Shown one piece after another: positions 2,685-11,516 of a stretch of DNA of 34,441 nt. Below the pieces are notes generated by a model. That model was not told the DNA's origin. It did not search any database and saw only the letters and a list, made by a program, of their open reading frames with translations. The stretch spans positions 1 to 34,441 of the IMG/VR virus record IMGVR_UViG_3300046653_000016; one strand, written 5' to 3'. The stretch comes from a virus. Numbering within the stretch: the first letter of the stretch is position 1; every line of letters starts with the position of its first letter. A program made the translations under genes and the position numbers.

Positions 2685-3632
2685 TCAGTATTTGATGAAA
2701 AGGTGAAGGATTTCGCCAGCATTAACAGCGTCAATCAATTCCAACGCATCAGCTCTGTGCCACCCCAACTTCTCAACGCCCATAATTATTTCGTCGTGGA
2801 TTATTTTGCGATGAGCTTCATCCGCTGCGCGCTCATTCTCGACCCGCTGACGCTCGCGCTCGGCAGCTTCGCGGGCAATGCGCGCTTGCTCGGCTGCGCG
2901 GTGCTCTGCGGCCTCTTTGGCTGCGCGGGCGGCTGCTTCCTCGCGTTCTTTGATGGAGCGCTCTGCGGCCTCGGCGCGGAGGCGGGCAAGCTCGATCTGT
3001 TCTGCGTCATACTTCTCGCGGCGTCCGATAGCGTCGAAGATTTGCTGTGCGGTATAGGCTTTGGCTTGCGCGGCGCGGGTCGAGAATTCCTGCCAGTCGC
3101 GTTTCTCGGAATCGATCTCGCGCAGCCGATCGCGCATCGCTTCGACAGTGAGTGTCTGCCAGTTTTGAATCGACCAAGGTCCAGCCGCTTCAATCTCGGC
3201 CAGCGCAGCCTCGTGCGCAGCCATGCGCTCTTTCTCAGCATTCTCCAGATCCGTTACCGGCTTGCGCACCTCGACCTTGAATGCGTCCAGGTCATCGCGC
3301 ATCGACTTGCGGTCTGCGTTGACTGCTGTCACCACGGCGCGGTGCTCTTCGGTGAGGTCTGCGCCCCTCTTGTCGAGCTTCACCTTTGCGCTTGCCACGC
3401 GGGCGGAAAGCAAGATAATGCGCGCCTTGTCTTTTGGGATGGATACGTCGAGCGTGGCGAGTTGTGCGCGGACTTCCGCCTTGACCCTATCGACCATGGA
3501 GGCCAGCGCCCCAGGCGCGTAAATGAGTGAAGCTGGCGTGGTCTCGATCAGTGCCAGCGATGTGATGGGCGATTCCTCCGCGTCGGGCGCGAAGATTTCT
3601 GGTTGTGCGTGTGCTCCGGTGTTCAGTCTCAC
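2685..3632 (-). CDS. coiled-coil protein between ERF and exonuclease genes
   Basis: 315 residues with a GTG start at 3632 that overlaps the ERF stop (TAGTG) and has GGGAG seven bases upstream. After a 35-residue N-terminal arm the protein is almost entirely helical: a segment near residues 45-130 rich in Lys, Glu and Asp, then a very regular Ala/Glu/Arg coiled coil near 205-275 (EREEAAARAAKEAAEHRAAEQ type repeats). The C-terminus (GVEKLGWHRADALELIDAVNAGEIL) is a compact helical end seen in several phage proteins linked to annealing proteins. Being translated between annealase and exonuclease, it may bridge or load them (inference). Enzymatic motifs are absent. Confidence 0.8.
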   Translation of the reverse strand: MRLNTGAHAQPEIFAPDAEESPITSLALIETTPASLIYAPGALASMVDRVKAEVRAQLATLDVSIPKDKARIILLSARVASAKVKLDKRGADLTEEHRAVVTAVNADRKSMRDDLDAFKVEVRKPVTDLENAEKERMAAHEAALAEIEAAGPWSIQNWQTLTVEAMRDRLREIDSEKRDWQEFSTRAAQAKAYTAQQIFDAIGRREKYDAEQIELARLRAEAAERSIKEREEAAARAAKEAAEHRAAEQARIAREAAERERQRVENERAADEAHRKIIHDEIIMGVEKLGWHRADALELIDAVNAGEILHLFIKY

Positions 3633-4411
3633 TAGATTCTCCCATCGGCTTGCAGTTCGCGGTACCGCTTGTTCTTGGCTTCCGCGAATGCGAGCGTTGA
3701 TTTTGTATCTCCCTTGTCGTCTGCTGCTCTCTGCGCGGCCATGTACATCTTGCGCAGCTCCTCGCCGTCGCCAGCGTTGCGGATGTTGTCAAGGTGTGTG
3801 ATGTGGTCGAGTTCGTCGAGTGCGCCGGGCTGCTTTCCTCCGCCATGATTACCGTCGTCGTCTTTCTCTTTGAAACGCAGATTGAAAATCATGTTCTTGA
3901 TGTATCGCTTGGCATAGGTTACACCGCTGCCGACAGCCTGAACACGCGACATTACGCCATCGCCTTTTGGACCCTTGCCGTCGCATGGAATCGGGAGTGG
4001 ATACTCTTTAGAGTATGCCCCCAGGCTCAGAACTCCGACCACGATAAACTCGTTGTCTTTGTCGGAGGCCTTCGGCACAAAGGAAAGCGTCATGCCTTCA
4101 TCTTCGATCAGCTTATCGATCATGTTGTCGATGGCTTCAGCGGATGCGTAACGGCTGCGCGTCTGTTTATTTTCGCAGTCCTTGACAATAGGCTTGATCT
4201 TGTCTTGCATACGCCGCAAAGCTGCGTTGAAGGCGTCGCGGTCTTCATAGTCGCGTTGCTTGGCCATCTGCTCAAGGATACGGTCGGCTACCGCTAGAGC
4301 CTCTGCGCCACCGGCTTCAAGCGCTTTTTGAAAGGCGACTTGAATCATCTGCATGGGCTGCATCGGAGCGAGTTGCGTCGGTTCTTGTTTGGTGATTGCG
4401 CTATCGGTCAT
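3632..4411 (-). CDS. erf: ERF-family single-strand annealing protein
   Basis: 259 residues. ERF hallmarks are present: an N-terminal helix region, then SRYASAEAIDNMIDKLIEDEG with MTLSF near residues 86-111, a beta strand EFIVVGVLSLGAYSKE, and GSGVTYAKRYIKNMIF near 161-176, the conserved G-S/T-x-x-TYAKRY motif. The C-terminal third is acidic and variable, as usual. ERF proteins coat single strands and anneal complementary DNA, serving genome circularisation and recombination together with a 5'-3' exonuclease, which is encoded in the same operon. ATGA overlap with the upstream gene; the ribosome site AGGACG is very near the ATG. Confidence 0.92.
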   Translation of the reverse strand: MTDSAITKQEPTQLAPMQPMQMIQVAFQKALEAGGAEALAVADRILEQMAKQRDYEDRDAFNAALRRMQDKIKPIVKDCENKQTRSRYASAEAIDNMIDKLIEDEGMTLSFVPKASDKDNEFIVVGVLSLGAYSKEYPLPIPCDGKGPKGDGVMSRVQAVGSGVTYAKRYIKNMIFNLRFKEKDDDGNHGGGKQPGALDELDHITHLDNIRNAGDGEELRKMYMAAQRAADDKGDTKSTLAFAEAKNKRYRELQADGRI

Positions 4412-4659
4412 CGTCCTGCCTCCGCGTCCAGCATGGCCAGGCGCTGCTGATAGTCTGGGAAGTTTAAGAAGAAGCGCTCAACAAATGCGCGCCTTGCTGC
4501 GATCTGCTCAGGGGTGCTGACAGGCTGCGGCTCCGGCTCGTCGCGCTCCGCCTCGTAGTCTGCATCCGCATCGTAGTTGCTTTCGAGCGGCGCACAGTCC
4601 TCCGGGCAGGTGATGCCCAGCCATTCGTCTTGGGACTCGCCGCGATATTCGCGCGTCAT
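4408..4659 (-). CDS. hypothetical acidic early protein
   Basis: 83 residues, strongly acidic in the middle (a run of Asp/Glu/Ala near residues 30-45), with a helical C-terminus (EQIAARRAFVERFFLNF and DYQQRLAMLDAE). Both ends overlap neighbours by ATGA junctions, which supports real translation. No recognised domain. Its tight coupling to the ERF gene suggests joint expression only. Confidence 0.7.
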   Translation of the reverse strand: MTREYRGESQDEWLGITCPEDCAPLESNYDADADYEAERDEPEPQPVSTPEQIAARRAFVERFFLNFPDYQQRLAMLDAEAGR

Positions 4660-4970
4660 AGCGCATCTCCACCAGGATCTCCATTGGCGAATCTCACCAG
4701 AATCCCGTTCTTGAGTAGCTCGTGGATGCGCGTATTTACACGGCCCTGAACCGACTGCATCGCCTTATCGAACACTTTATTTGTGAGGGTATTTGCCACG
4801 CGCTCGGCGAGAGTTGAAGCGGCCATTGCTACGGCTTTGTTGCGTACCTCTCCCACTACTTGCCCATAGCTCGTCTGCTGGCGCAAAACAGCCACCATTT
4901 CAGCAAGCACCGTATCCTCGGCCTTCTTGCGGAGCCGCTGGACAGTTTCTTCGTCAAGCTCAATGTTCAT
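4656..4970 (-). CDS. hypothetical helical early protein
   Basis: 104 residues starting MNIELDEETVQRLRKKAEDT. The first strand-helix stretch, followed by TLAERVANTLTNKVFDKAMQ and a final segment, predicts mostly helices with a regular charged/hydrophobic pattern. It is joined to both neighbours by short overlaps. The start of the protein could resemble a tail or replisome accessory helix bundle, but I recognise no family. Confidence 0.7.
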   Translation of the reverse strand: MNIELDEETVQRLRKKAEDTVLAEMVAVLRQQTSYGQVVGEVRNKAVAMAASTLAERVANTLTNKVFDKAMQSVQGRVNTRIHELLKNGILVRFANGDPGGDAL

Positions 4971-5302
4971 ACACCAACGCCTTTCTGCTGCAATACCGCA
5001 GCCTGCTCGATCATGTCTTGCGCATCGCTCAAGTCATCGAAGCGCATCTGCTGGATGGGAACCACTTGGTATTGCGGCTCCTTGAAATCAGGCGCGCGCC
5101 ATCTTGGCAACCAGCCAGGGCCGCTATAACTCAGCTTGTGCGCGGCACGCTGTAGCTCGGTAACGTGGGTCTGCTCTTTCATCGCGTCGAGCACGCTGGC
5201 ATGGAAGCTGAGCAGTTCTGCGCTGATTTCGTCAAGATCAATATCCTCATCGACCTCGATAGTCATTGCGCAGAGGGCGAAACATGCGAAATCAAAGCGC
5301 AT
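4967..5302 (-). CDS. hypothetical early protein
   Basis: 111 residues if the ATG at 5302 is used (weak AGCAGG upstream, 11-base overlap with the preceding gene). ATGs at 5320 and 5266 are alternatives, and the acidic stretch after 5266 (MTIEVDEDIDLDEISAE) could be the true N-terminus. The central PGWLPRWRAPDFKEPQYQ is aromatic and basic; the rest is helical. No family recognised, and the start is uncertain. Confidence 0.6.
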   Translation of the reverse strand: MRFDFACFALCAMTIEVDEDIDLDEISAELLSFHASVLDAMKEQTHVTELQRAAHKLSYSGPGWLPRWRAPDFKEPQYQVVPIQQMRFDDLSDAQDMIEQAAVLQQKGVGV

Positions 5303-7269: not shown

Positions 7270-7630
7270 TCTGCTCCTTATGCGGTTGAGTACCGCTTTC
7301 GATCTGATGTAATCATAGCGCACATTCCGGTGCGTGGCACAACTATTTTGTGATTATTTGCACTCTTGTGACGGCGCGCACAATTTATCTGCAAGGTGCT
7401 GTATTTGCTGTAGTTATATCTTGATGCGCATATAGGGTGCGGGAGTGCGGATTGCTCTCATCTCTCAACTTTGTCGCCACAACACGCGCGCGAAAAAACG
7501 TCAAGCATTCGATTCAGTTTGATGATATTGCGATATTTCGATATTCAGGCAAACTTCGGGTTTCGGGCAATTCGCGCAGAATCGCTCTAAGTTGCACAAT
7601 AAGTTACCTTTGCAGCGCAATCAGGCTATG
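7270..7630. promoter_or_regulatory. AT-rich control region with GATATT iterations
   Basis: No supported gene in about 360 bases, and base composition is visibly richer in A and T than the neighbouring genes. It holds three GATATT copies at an exact 8-base period (7524, 7532, 7540), a doubled TTCGGG just after, and GCGCACA elements at 7318 and 7376. Such iterations mark replication origins or operator arrays; which applies is not decided by the sequence. Confidence 0.4.
7312..7342 (-). promoter_or_regulatory. putative leftward early promoter
   Basis: On the minus strand TTGTGC (7342-7337) and TATGAT (7317-7312) are separated by 19 bases, a little long for a sigma70-type promoter. The -10 is near consensus. 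It would read into the gene at 6978-7265, with a GCGCACA element between the boxes where a repressor could bind. Confidence 0.45.
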
Positions 7631-7822
7631 CTAGCATCCGCGCTCGGTCGTCACTCCGCGCGCATTGCAACGGCTCTCGCCATCGTCGCGGCTGGCCAGC
7701 TCGTTTGTCGCTGGATTGCCGCCCCCCGACCCCTGCCGACGCCGATCAGCGTAGTGTGTGCGCTGGCCGACCCCGGACTCCAAGAGGGATTTGCCTGGTG
7801 CCCTGGTGATCGCGCTCAGCAT
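7631..7822 (-). CDS. doubtful ORF after the KOW-like gene
   Basis: An ATG two bases after the stop of the 58-residue gene opens 63 codons (MLSAITRAPGKSLLESGVGQ onward). It is polar and basic with Gly/Arg-rich low complexity, and has no good ribosome site or recognisable fold. The opposite strand is also open across the same stretch, so the open frame may simply reflect high GC content. Listed because of its operon-like spacing. Confidence 0.3.
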   Translation of the reverse strand: MLSAITRAPGKSLLESGVGQRTHYADRRRQGSGGGNPATNELASRDDGESRCNARGVTTERGC

Positions 7823-7823
7823 A

Positions 7824-8000
7824 TCACGCCAGGCGCAGCGACGCTGAAGTGTGCAAGCGCACATAATCTGGTGCAATATCTGCCCACAAAACAGCGTATT
7901 TTGCACGTTCTATGCGCAGTACGGTCCCAGGCTGGCCGGCAGTTGGACAGGTTCGCAGCACGACTCGTGCGCCGATAGGGATTGCAGGTTGATCGCTCAT
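7824..8000 (-). CDS. 58-residue SH3/KOW-like small protein
   Basis: The minus strand encodes MSDQPAIPIGARVVLRTCPT, then AGQPGTVLRIERAKYAVLWA and DIAPDYVRLHTSASLRLA. The pattern IGARVVL - G-x-x-GTVLRI - YAVLWAD - YVRLHTSASL is that of a five-strand SH3-like or KOW-type barrel (G-x-x-V at the start, PGTV turn, WAD strand). Many phages encode such proteins early, some acting on RNA polymerase or ribosomes; the role here is unknown. It lies closest to the leftward promoter at 8012-8053 and lacks a Shine-Dalgarno, so its mRNA may have almost no leader. Confidence 0.75.
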   Translation of the reverse strand: MSDQPAIPIGARVVLRTCPTAGQPGTVLRIERAKYAVLWADIAPDYVRLHTSASLRLA

Positions 8001-8103: not shown

Positions 8104-8124
8104 ATATAAAGTACAAAAGCATTG

Positions 8125-8169
8125 TCGGCGCAAAAATCTGCGCCGACGCAAAAGCGTGTGCGCTATAAT
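8125..8169 (+). promoter_or_regulatory. late rightward promoter with palindromic operator
   Basis: TCGGCGCA (8125-8132) and TGCGCCGA (8139-8146) form a perfect 8-base palindrome with a 6-base centre. Seventeen bases later is a consensus TATAAT (8164-8169), and only six bases separate it from the ATG at 8176. No -35 box is present; the palindrome sits where one would be, centred about 40 bases before the expected start, the position of class II activator sites. The transcript probably begins at or next to the ATG. A repressor site is also possible. Confidence 0.6.
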
Positions 8170-8175
8170 TCGTCC

Positions 8176-8559
8176 ATGGAAAGCAGCGCCTGGAAATACC
8201 ACTCAGATACCGGCCTGATCGAGAGCCCCACCGGCTTCAAGCTGGGCGACGGCTACTCAGGCAATGGCGCGGGTCTCAACAACCCTGCGATGGAGAGCGT
8301 GCACAACGTCGGCCCGATCCCGCGCGGTGCGTGGACGATTGGGCAATTTTTTGACGATCCAGGCGGCAAGGGTCCGGTCGTTGCGCATCTCATACCCTGC
8401 GATGGCACGGAGACGTTTGGGCGCTCGGGCTTTATGATCCACGGCGACAATTCCGCGTTAAATCACTCGGCCAGTGAGGGCTGTATCGTCGCCCCGCGCT
8501 TCATCCGCGACCAGATCACGCACGGACTGAGTGTGTGCAGTGTGCTGGAGGTCGTGTAA
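8176..8559 (+). CDS. DUF2778/Tlde1-like murein enzyme, putative endolysin
   Basis: 127 residues from the ATG at 8176; the frame is open back to 8122, but that would need a TTG start inside the promoter. Conserved blocks of DUF2778/Tlde1 are visible: GFKLGDGYSGNGAGLNNPAM near 20-39, NVGPIPRGAWTIG near 44-56, then GFMIHGDNS and SEGCIV with His89, Ser100, Gly102 and Cys103. Tlde1 proteins are L,D-transpeptidase-like enzymes that cut or exchange residues in peptidoglycan stem peptides; the H-G...S-x-G-C motif carries the catalytic Cys and His. Placed before a holin-like gene, it is the likely lysis enzyme. It has no signal peptide, so release needs a membrane lesion. Confidence 0.82.
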   Translation: MESSAWKYHSDTGLIESPTGFKLGDGYSGNGAGLNNPAMESVHNVGPIPRGAWTIGQFFDDPGGKGPVVAHLIPCDGTETFGRSGFMIHGDNSALNHSASEGCIVAPRFIRDQITHGLSVCSVLEVV

Positions 8560-8560
8560 A

Positions 8561-9340
8561 ATGGGCTTGATAAGCTGGGCCGAAAGGAAAATCGAAATGA
8601 AAATCGTTGCTGCACTGATTGAGCGAGTGTTCAAAAATTGGATTACGACCGCGCTGGGCATCTTACTGGGCTTTGCGGGCGTAGTCTCCGCCGTCTACAG
8701 CCTGATCCCCTCCACCGCCGTCTGGCAGGGCCACAACATCGCCAATACGCTCCTGGCTGCCGCCGGTGTCGCCGTCGCCCTGGCCGGCGCAATCGCCAAA
8801 GACAAGAACATCGGCATCAATCCGCCCACGCTGCCCACCAGGGTCGGCATGATCGTGCTGATGCTCCTGGCCGGGTCGATGCTCTGGCCGGCGAGCGTGC
8901 AGGCGCAGACCACCGACACTCCGACCGAGCTGCAAAACATCTACGCAGCGGGAGCGTCCTACTCAATCAATGCCAGCCCCTCCATCGCTGGCACCGCTCT
9001 GTATGCTCACTCGCTCAACAGCACAGGAACCTACGCATTCACGGTCGTAGATGCTCTGCCAGCCACGATCAAGCCGTTTACCGTCACGACCAACATCGGA
9101 GCCGGTATCGCGCAAAAACTGTTCACGCTCGGAAAAATCCCTGTTTACGTTCCCACAGCGGCGGGCATCAGTTGGAGCGGGACGAATACCGGCTGGCAGT
9201 GGTCGGGCGGCGGCCTCGCATCGATCCACGTCAAGGGCAATTACTACCTCATGCCATCCGTACGATTCCTCAAGTCCAGCGTGAGCGGCGGTACCGGATA
9301 CCAGCCGATTCTGGGCTTGCTGGTCGCCTGGGGCAAATAA
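8561..9340 (+). CDS. holin-like membrane protein fused to beta-barrel-like domain
   Basis: 259 residues from the ATG at 8561 (GGAGG nine bases upstream); a second ATG at 8597 has its own AAGGAA and would remove 12 charged residues. TM helices are seen near residues 28-49, 58-79 and 95-115. The third ends LWPASVQAQ, which looks like a signal-peptidase site. After it, about 140 residues alternate polar and hydrophobic positions with Tyr, Trp and Gly, as in small outer-membrane beta-barrels, ending in AWGK. The first two helices suit a phage holin. The fused exported domain is not part of known holins. It follows the endolysin directly and precedes a GC hairpin and the terminase genes. Confidence 0.65.
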   Translation: MGLISWAERKIEMKIVAALIERVFKNWITTALGILLGFAGVVSAVYSLIPSTAVWQGHNIANTLLAAAGVAVALAGAIAKDKNIGINPPTLPTRVGMIVLMLLAGSMLWPASVQAQTTDTPTELQNIYAAGASYSINASPSIAGTALYAHSLNSTGTYAFTVVDALPATIKPFTVTTNIGAGIAQKLFTLGKIPVYVPTAAGISWSGTNTGWQWSGGGLASIHVKGNYYLMPSVRFLKSSVSGGTGYQPILGLLVAWGK

Positions 9341-9391: not shown

Positions 9392-9877
9392 ATGGCGTCC
9401 GAAATTTACGATCCAGAAATCGCCGAAGAAATACTTGTGCGCATGAGCGGCGGCGAGAGCCTGCGCACGATCTGCGCCGACGAGGGGTATCCATGCCGCA
9501 GGACGGTGACCCGCTGGGCTGTACGCGATACGGAAGGGTTTGCCGATCGGTACGCCGCGGCGCGTCGGGCCGGGGTTGAATCGCGGATTGAGGACGCGAA
9601 CGAGATTGCCGCGGAGAGGCCAACGTACACCGATGAGGCCGGAGTCACTCGCATCGATGCGGCAGGCATCCAGCGCAATCGCCTCCGCTGCGACCAGGCT
9701 AAATGGGAAGCCTCGCACCTTCTGCGCGGCGGCATCAAGCCAAGCGCGCCGCTGGACTATGGCGACAAGATCCAGGCTGAATTGAGCGGAGAACTGGGCA
9801 TCAAGACCGTGATGGTCGCCAATCCTGTCAAGGATGCAACGCCGCGGCCCGAGCCCAAACCCGACTTCGAGTCGTAG
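9392..9877 (+). CDS. terminase small subunit
   Basis: 161 residues. The ATG at 9392 is preferred over the GTG directly before it; GAGG is eight bases upstream. The N-terminal SEIYDPEIAEEILVRMSGGE then SLRTICADEGYPCRRTVTRW is the helix-turn-helix of the terS-like family (small packaging subunits that start each gene with a DNA-binding domain). The middle (ADRYAAARRAGVESRIEDAN) is helical and may form the oligomer ring; the end is charged. The product recognises viral DNA and recruits the large subunit, whose gene begins one base after its stop. Confidence 0.85.
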   Translation: MASEIYDPEIAEEILVRMSGGESLRTICADEGYPCRRTVTRWAVRDTEGFADRYAAARRAGVESRIEDANEIAAERPTYTDEAGVTRIDAAGIQRNRLRCDQAKWEASHLLRGGIKPSAPLDYGDKIQAELSGELGIKTVMVANPVKDATPRPEPKPDFES

Positions 9878-9878
9878 C

Positions 9879-11516
9879 ATGGCGCATCCTGCGGTCATAG
9901 ACGGCGTGCTGGACGCAGCGAAGCTCTGGGAGCCCACCGCAAAGAACAAGATCATCCGACAGTCCACCTCGCACAACCGGCTGCGCGTAGGCGGTACAGG
10001 ATCAAGCAAAAGCTCAGACGCAATGATGGAGATCGTGACTGATTTCCTCTTGCGCTTCCCTGGCTGCTTTGCGCTGATCCTGCGAACGACGATGCCAGAG
10101 CTTGAGCGCTCGAACATCCCAAACTTCCGCGCATACGTTCCAAGCGATCTCTATACGTGGAACGATACAAAGCACATAGCGACGTTTTACAACGGATCGA
10201 AGCTGTTCTTTTCGCACATGCAGTACTTCACGTGGAAGGAGATGGAGGCGTATCAGTCTTCCAGTTTCCCGGTGATTTTCCTTGATGAGTGCGGAGGCAT
10301 CCCCATGGCCGTGTGGGACTTCTTCCAGGCCCGCAACCGCGTGAACCCTGAATGCCAGCCAGACGCCAATGGAGAATATCCGATTCCCTGCACGCTGGGG
10401 GCCACGAACCCCATCGGCGCATATTGGGGCGAGTACAACGACCGATTCGTGCTCAAGAAGCCGGATGGATTGCCAGAGGGTAGCAAAACAGACCGCCATG
10501 GTCGTATCTGGTCGCCTGTGCGTGGCGCGGCATCTAATCCGCACGAGCCGGCCGACTGGCGGCTTGAGTATGATCCATTCGAGTGGGATTTCGTCCACAG
10601 CACAATCATGGACAATCCGCACATGCTGGCGAAAGACCCCGGCATCGTCGCGCGGCTGAACGCCATGCCGAAGGAACTGCGTGAAAAGCTGCTCGACGGC
10701 AAGCTGGACACGACGGTGGGTCAGTACTTCGACTGCTTCGACCCCAACTTCGACGTCATCAACCTGCGCGAAGACCCGGACGCAATCATCTGGCAGTATT
10801 GGCAGCCGCGGTGGCTAGGTTGGGACTGGGGCCGCGCGCACTGGAACTCGGTTGTGTGGTTCACTAAAGCGCTGGTGCGGCGCGCCGGGGGCGAATACAG
10901 GCTCAAGACAGTGCAATATCGAGAGTACGTGGACCGCGGGCGCGATTACGTTGAAATGGCGCAGATCGTCGCCAAGATGACGCGCCTGGGCCTGCCGGGT
11001 GCAACAGATGAGGACCGGGCGCAAAAGCGCGGCTGCGATTACCGCGCGGCCTACTTCAGTCACGAGAAGTTCGCCAAGCAGATGGAAGCGGAGTCGCCAG
11101 CCGCCAAACTCAGCAAGTACATGATGGATCTCGGCTTGGCGGGCATGACGCGGGCGACAACTGACCGCGTGGGCCGCGCAACGCTGCTCTACCACCTGTT
11201 CAAGGTGCGCGAATTCGCGATTCTGGACACATGCCCGGAGACGATCAAGGCGCTCCCGCAGTGCACGCGCGATGAGGACAACCTGGAAGATGTGCTCAAG
11301 GTTGAGACCAAGGGCGACGACGTTTACGACTCGGTTGCGTTGGGTCTGTTCGGCGAGTTGGGCACCCGTCCAAAGCCGCAGGAAGAGAAAGACCGCGAGA
11401 AAGTTGAGTCGCAAGCCGACGAACGTGGTAAATTCTTGATGAGGTATAAGCTCACGCAGGAGCGCGACCAACGCGAGGCGCGGTCGGAAGAGCGGCCACC
11501 GGAGAACTGGGAATGA
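9879..11516 (+). CDS. terL: terminase large subunit (ATPase and nuclease)
   Basis: 545 residues from MAHPAVIDGVLDAAKLWEP at 9879, one base after the small-subunit stop. Walker A is VGGTGSSKSS near 37-46, and Walker B with the catalytic pair is VIFLDE near 132-137. The RNase H-like nuclease domain begins at GWDWG near 314-318 (first acidic residue) and has the C-terminal acidic site KGDDVYDSVALGL near 478-490. It powers DNA translocation into the prohead and cuts the concatemer. The stop overlaps the next ATG. Complete and of normal length. Confidence 0.95.
   Translation: MAHPAVIDGVLDAAKLWEPTAKNKIIRQSTSHNRLRVGGTGSSKSSDAMMEIVTDFLLRFPGCFALILRTTMPELERSNIPNFRAYVPSDLYTWNDTKHIATFYNGSKLFFSHMQYFTWKEMEAYQSSSFPVIFLDECGGIPMAVWDFFQARNRVNPECQPDANGEYPIPCTLGATNPIGAYWGEYNDRFVLKKPDGLPEGSKTDRHGRIWSPVRGAASNPHEPADWRLEYDPFEWDFVHSTIMDNPHMLAKDPGIVARLNAMPKELREKLLDGKLDTTVGQYFDCFDPNFDVINLREDPDAIIWQYWQPRWLGWDWGRAHWNSVVWFTKALVRRAGGEYRLKTVQYREYVDRGRDYVEMAQIVAKMTRLGLPGATDEDRAQKRGCDYRAAYFSHEKFAKQMEAESPAAKLSKYMMDLGLAGMTRATTDRVGRATLLYHLFKVREFAILDTCPETIKALPQCTRDEDNLEDVLKVETKGDDVYDSVALGLFGELGTRPKPQEEKDREKVESQADERGKFLMRYKLTQERDQREARSEERPPENWE

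Follow-up and report, generated by a model that had tools for sequence, protein, structure and literature searches.

A fused, probable phage lysis protein, joining a holin-like module to a predicted outer-membrane barrel, suggests a new way through the outer membrane

A single phage gene is predicted to encode a holin-like module, an internal signal peptide and a small outer-membrane beta-barrel, and this fused, probable lysis protein suggests a new way through the outer membrane. The gene lies in IMG/VR virus record IMGVR_UViG_3300046653_000016, possibly a fragment, which we analysed over its whole length of 34,441 nt (34.4 kb; hereafter the window), following up an earlier note on the same DNA. 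We lean slightly, at a little better than even confidence, towards reading the gene as a lysis polyprotein, that is, a holin made together with an outer-membrane barrel that signal peptidase releases and that takes the spanin slot. We read it as a polyprotein because a signal-peptidase-type site (x-A↓Q, followed by Gln) is present in 33 of 33 fused relatives, as in most stand-alone barrels; at the pattern level, then, a cleavable Sec signal precedes the barrel in both. The family offers a concrete, cloneable candidate for the outer-membrane step in phages that infect Acidobacteriota, a diderm group that has been little studied.

The fusion gene and its predicted topology

The open reading frame, read from the sequence, has 259 codons and occupies 8561-9340 on the plus strand (Table 1). 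Hydropathy places three hydrophobic helices in the 259-residue product, at residues 31-49, 60-78 and 95-113, where the earlier note had counted two and perhaps a third. The signal-cleavage-like site that it had pointed out is also present, as SVQA↓Q after residue 115, between helix 3 and the C-terminal domain. Lysine and arginine number 5, 0, 3 and 0 in the successive segments of the product, the positive charges lying ahead of helix 1 and in the loop from helix 2 to helix 3, and the other two loops having none. This distribution therefore predicts an N-in topology, with a helical hairpin and with helix 3 taking the C-terminal domain to the outside of the inner membrane.

Some phages carry the two halves of the fusion as separate genes, and a frameshift artefact was named in advance as an outcome that would overturn the reading of a single gene. 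An independent contig (L031), however, is 93% identical to the window across the fusion region, and the fusion recurs in dozens of independent contigs. For the whole gene, pN/pS between the window and L031 is 0.14; because it is 0.07 for the holin module, 0.22 for the signal helix and 0.23 for the barrel, both halves are, by this comparison, under purifying selection. The possibility that two ordinary genes were joined by a sequencing, assembly or frameshift error, which we give practically no chance, is ruled out by L031 and by this selection.

Table 1. Features of the window, and loci with related modules (positions are those of the window unless a locus is named)
Feature	Position or loci	Strand	Basis
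Tlde1-like peptidoglycan enzyme, presumed endolysin, without signal peptide	8179..8559	+	Pfam Tlde1_dom, E 4.9e-11, above cut-off
Shine-Dalgarno GGAGG, first start	8547..8551	+	sequence
N-terminal extension of long form (MGLISWAERKIE)	8561..8596	+	12 in-frame codons between starts
Shine-Dalgarno AAGGA, second start	8584..8588	+	sequence
Holin-like module, short form (residues 13-93; helices 31-49, 60-78)	8597..8839	+	hydropathy
Predicted internal signal peptide (third helix, residues 94-115), ending VQA↓Q	8840..8905	+	
Predicted mature exported domain	8906..9337	+	AF2 model, Foldseek, charge count
Predicted barrel core, 8 strands, short loops (residues 124-259, 136 aa)	8930-9337	+	
Terminase small subunit	9392..9877	+	Pfam Sf6_terminase, E 4.1e-23
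Terminase large subunit	9834..11516	+	PHROG 979, E 7.6e-20
N-module type A	window, L031, L008, L036; L061 similar		
N-module type B	L003-L007		
N-module type C	L032-L035, L037-L040, L043, L062, L073, L075		
N-module type D	L048		
N-module type E	L054, L055, L060		
Barrel II behind type A	L079, L085		
Barrel II behind type B	L083		
Barrel II behind type C	L092-L095, L097, L113, L118, L120		
Barrel II behind further N-module type	L091		
Coiled-coil-like neighbour proteins	L038:7166-7474, L078:3100-3420, L083:3983-4303, L092:3747-4292		

The C-terminal domain

Structure prediction and a homology search with the C-terminal domain had both been put forward as checks on the small outer-membrane barrel that the earlier note read from the letters; the structure prediction agrees with it. 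The AlphaFold2 model of the window domain, made from an alignment of 21 relatives and covering the C-terminal domain, has a pLDDT of 86 and eight antiparallel strands with short turns and loops, closing as in OmpX and OmpA; it is a predicted barrel, not a globular soluble domain. The best-ranked Foldseek matches in the PDB are outer-membrane barrels, namely OmpX (E 7.6e-5), a designed transmembrane barrel, OmpA, NspA (TMq 0.74), Ail, OprF and PagL, and among viral models the matches are phage 'outer membrane beta-barrel' proteins at TMq of about 0.8. Only 8 of the 136 barrel residues (6%) are charged, and the C-terminus has the G-x-x-hydrophobic-x-aromatic pattern of outer-membrane barrel signals, its Gly invariant and its Trp nearly so in the 21-relative alignment. 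We rejected a soluble, avidin-like calyx on the grounds that outer-membrane barrels rank far above it in Foldseek and that so few residues are charged; chance barrel-like composition is ruled out by the model and the fold search.

The barrel belongs to no sequence family in Pfam, PHROGs or NCBIfam. It has no significant match to the Lom/Ail/OmpX family in Pfam, PHROG or PDB sequences, the PDB sequence search returning zero matches, and neither the whole protein nor the barrel has relatives in 50,697 phage records. The homology search found this domain, here called barrel I, in about 50 viral contigs and three acidobacterial genomes, with identities to the window copy of roughly 60-98% across diverse phages. 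Some copies stand alone behind a plain signal peptide and about half lie behind a hydrophobic N-module. One acidobacterial copy (L103) sits on a contig of 1.69 Mb, and the MAG and genome matches of the family are acidobacterial; the best explanation is that the window phage is a phage of Acidobacteriota.

Two starts

Both starts of the window gene (8561 and 8597) are ATG codons with a Shine-Dalgarno site, GGAGG and AAGGA respectively. This much of the earlier description stands, but the stretch between them, which it had called 12 charged residues, holds four charged residues with a net charge of zero. The extension shows zero differences between the window and L031, and the 12-codon spacing is kept in L031, L008, L036, L078 and L085, with 13 in L080. 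A Shine-Dalgarno match of at least 4 bases lies at the second in-frame start in 28 of 29 fusions, compared with 9 of 109 other internal ATGs, the loci behind these counts sharing ancestry and so not being independent. Within a holin type the spacing is constant (12 codons in type A, 26 in C, 32 in B and 16 in E). Type C retains the ribosome site AAGGA while its codons vary between AAG-GAG and AAA-GGA, and thus the nucleotide signal itself seems, from these alignments, to be selected; the type C extension has a pN/pS of 0.71, with saturated sites.

Two conserved in-frame starts, each with its own ribosome site, form the arrangement of dual-start holin/antiholin genes. The module shares with lambda S105/S107 and the class II holins a small hydrophobic hairpin and an N-terminal dual start with two ribosome sites, and with canonical dual-start holins a position beside an endolysin without a leader, immediately ahead of the terminase genes. 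It differs from the canonical genes in having no sequence match to them, in the signal peptide and exported barrel added to it, and in a start spacing of 12-32 codons in the fusions rather than 2.

The lysis setting and the holin assignment

The gene order in the window is lysin, holin-barrel, small terminase, large terminase, an order similar to that of P22, in which the terminase genes follow those for holin, lysozyme and Rz. The Tlde1-like enzyme that had been placed directly upstream is recognised by Pfam, and its gene ends 1 base before the fusion gene starts; its homologues adjoin the fusion in L003, L006, L031 and L083. Tlde1-domain enzymes are known mainly as secreted toxins. As presumed endolysins they are widespread in this collection, occurring at window 8179-8559 and in L003, L006, L014, L035, L037, L083, L089 and L092.

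In a stretch from 4.5 kb upstream to 3.5 kb downstream of each locus, a lysin-like gene lies near 39 of 57 loci, most within a few hundred bases. Eight families are represented: Pfam recognises the Tlde1-like, phage lysozyme, glucosaminidase, Hydrolase_2, VanY and M15_3 seeds, and two further families (seeds in L063 and L103; 6 loci), unrecognised by Pfam, were named by eye. L050 additionally carries a glycosyl hydrolase 108 gene. Judged by eye, the lysin seeds have no signal peptide, and being leaderless they would therefore need a hole to leave the cytoplasm. Proteins of about 100-180 residues, with a coiled-coil-like N-terminal part and a single C-terminal helix, also recur beside the fusions (Table 1); their layout is XhlA-like, and three that were scanned have no Pfam match.

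With two hydrophobic helices and the signal helix in a short module, beside an endolysin that has no signal of its own, the N-module likely functions as a holin. The helices might instead be an anchor only, improving the targeting of the barrel or raising its dosage, with the holin elsewhere. In favour of an anchor, the holin modules have no significant match among the catalogued holin families of Pfam, PHROGs and NCBIfam (the best match of any module being PHROG 126 at E 0.09, for type E only), and the window record may be a fragment. Against it, no other small multi-helix gene in the window is convincing, the fusion has the dual starts, and the modules are also found as separate small genes beside lysins (L058, L050, L089). 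Moreover, separate holin-like genes are rarer near fusions (1 of 33) than near stand-alone barrels (8 of 21; Fisher p = 0.001), a contrast that keeps its direction at three looser thresholds. We consider an anchor quite unlikely and retain the holin assignment in what follows.

Exchange of holin and barrel modules

The plan of holin module, signal peptide and barrel recurs in more than 30 related loci, which share ancestry, so that counts across the family are not independent. The holin module is of several unrelated types and the barrel of two sequence-unrelated types (Table 1). Used as the sole query, the type A module recovered type A fused to a different C-terminal domain in L078-L080. Barrel II is modelled with eight strands (pLDDT 77), its best fold matches being NspA, OmpX, OprF and PagL at E 0.003 or worse. 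No sequence relation between barrels I and II is detectable, and we dropped the idea of a single sequence family; in acidobacterial genomes barrel II gave marginal matches alone, which were left unused.

All four pairings of holin types A and B with barrels I and II occur on one phage backbone: A-I in the window, A-II in L079, B-I in L003 and B-II in L083. Compared with L003, the window DNA is 88% identical over 8114-8569 (the lysin gene and first codons), has no match in the holin module between 8569 and 8845, and is 84% identical over 8845-9340 (signal peptide and barrel). L003 and L083 are 90.5% identical over 3587-4505 (lysin, holin B and signal peptide), without match in the barrel, and 93% identical again over 4918-5094. 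The breakpoints fall at the signal peptide, and in L003 and L083 the holin module is replaced as a unit. Judging by these alignments, related viruses exchange holin and barrel halves like cassettes, and such natural swaps provide ready chimeras for testing the holin and outer-membrane parts separately.

Split forms are found as well. In L058, where a glucosaminidase-type lysin precedes the pair, a separate type E module gene stops one base short of a stand-alone barrel gene; L050 has the same spacing between a type A-like two-helix gene and the barrel reading frame that follows, and the separate holin of L050 has no relative in the phage records searched. L089 has the type E module alone, directly after a Tlde1-like gene, and no barrel of this family was seen there. 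In L042 and L053, large-phage contigs of which one is 360 kb, a stand-alone barrel I adjoins a DNA polymerase gene, away from lysis genes.

Spanins and other outer-membrane factors

The earlier note had proposed that the gene replaces a separate spanin, and indeed a lipobox scan of the window finds no o-spanin-like lipoprotein. Across the fused loci there are lipobox candidates at 6 of 33, compared with 3 of 33 on the opposite strand, by a crude and non-exhaustive scan that recovers the o-spanins of lambda (Rz1), T7 (18.7) and P22 and missed P2 LysC. L060 encodes, at 8421-8615, a 64-residue lipoprotein of o-spanin size, 16 bases after the holin-barrel fusion. Nor is the fusion protein itself of spanin form, that is, a lipobox lipoprotein with an inner-membrane partner or its own C-terminal helix. 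In a survey of 677 phages of Gram-negative hosts, spanins were not found in 91 (PMC6139136), and what disrupts the outer membrane in spanin-less phages is described as open in a 2026 paper (PMC12819732).

With spanins (Rz/Rz1; the u-spanin T1 gp11) the fusion shares an outer-membrane-directed component and the slot between lysin and terminase; it differs in having no lipobox and no coiled coil, in its barrel, and in being predicted to be cut from its inner-membrane part. The barrel resembles OmpX, NspA, OmpA and phage Lom in its Sec signal, eight strands, few charges and C-terminal pattern, but it has no detectable homology to them, its loops are very short, and it lies behind a holin module and is kept in lysis cassettes. 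Disruptins (phiKT) are likewise proposed non-spanin disruptors of the outer membrane; they are short amphipathic helical antimicrobial peptides, whereas the cargo here is a 136-residue barrel. In the literature searched we found no description of a holin fused to an outer-membrane barrel, or of a holin whose C-terminus is a cleavable signal.

A proposed mechanism and its rivals

We propose that translation from the two starts would yield a longer and a shorter version of a canonical holin with two helices, probably an antiholin and a holin, and that the third helix would serve as a signal peptide, sending the C-terminal domain through Sec. Signal peptidase I would cut after VQA, the holin half would stay in the inner membrane, and the released domain of about 144 residues would fold via the BAM machinery into a minimal eight-stranded outer-membrane barrel. 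The holin would set the time at which the leaderless Tlde1-like endolysin is released. The barrel, equal in amount to the holin, would serve the outer-membrane step instead of spanins, most likely weakening or permeabilising the outer membrane once the peptidoglycan is cut. Cleavage and an outer-membrane location we hold to be very likely; for disruption of the outer membrane by the barrel the chances seem evenly balanced.

The earlier idea of a one-protein route through both membranes needs revision, as the conserved signal-peptidase site predicts two products in two membranes, and the linker of about 8 residues from cleavage site to barrel could not span the periplasm in a single bridging protein. 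One could still imagine an uncut protein whose holin end sits in the inner membrane while the barrel stays in the periplasm, wholly or partly folded; after peptidoglycan loss the barrel would enter the outer membrane and draw the membranes together as a spanin-like fusogen. One polypeptide would then join both membranes, which would fit the missing spanin candidates, but a cleavage site common to every fusion and to stand-alone barrels, together with split versions made as two proteins, renders this very improbable.

The main rival is a surface or receptor-blocking role. Here the gene would still encode a holin and an outer-membrane barrel, with the barrel a late surface modifier that has no part in rupture, and blocks a phage receptor or keeps new virions from adhering to debris, in the manner of T5 Llp or the lambdoid Lom. 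The known roles of phage-encoded outer-membrane barrels are mostly at the surface, the rapid swaps of barrel type within one backbone are as expected in receptor conflict, and the large-phage copies in L042 and L053 lie away from lysis genes. On the other side, the barrel model has short loops only, barrel I is better conserved across diverse phages than expected for a receptor-facing protein, the association with endolysins is strong, most fused cassettes have no spanin candidate, and a lipoprotein occupies the same slot in L116. We regard the surface role as somewhat unlikely, and prefer a role of the barrel in outer-membrane lysis because of the lysis cassette, the lack of spanin candidates and the lipoprotein in L116. 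Several observations count against the polyprotein reading, namely that the holin modules match no described family, that the L042 and L053 barrels lie beside DNA polymerase, and that L060 has its lipoprotein.

More tentatively, minimal phage beta-barrels that signal peptidase releases from holin polyproteins may constitute an outer-membrane lysis factor of a third kind, next to spanins and disruptins. If so, one gene might supply the inner- and the outer-membrane steps, and holin and outer-membrane cassettes might be exchanged where the signal peptide joins them, the cargo being a barrel, a lipoprotein or a phospholipase-D-like domain; we hold this reading to be possible, at somewhat less than even confidence.

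Other cargo behind holin-like modules

L116 encodes, at 3905-4819, a type C holin-like module followed by a lipobox signal (LPVMGC) and a helical lipoprotein domain, with no barrel. Beside the stand-alone barrel of L049 lies a stand-alone lipoprotein (7350-7946) to which this domain is related (E 2e-9). A separate protein of L049 (8308-9282) combines a pair of holin-like helices and a linker with an internal signal peptide and, as enzyme cargo, a phospholipase-D-like domain (PLDc_2, E 3.8e-19); its module plan is that of the fusions.
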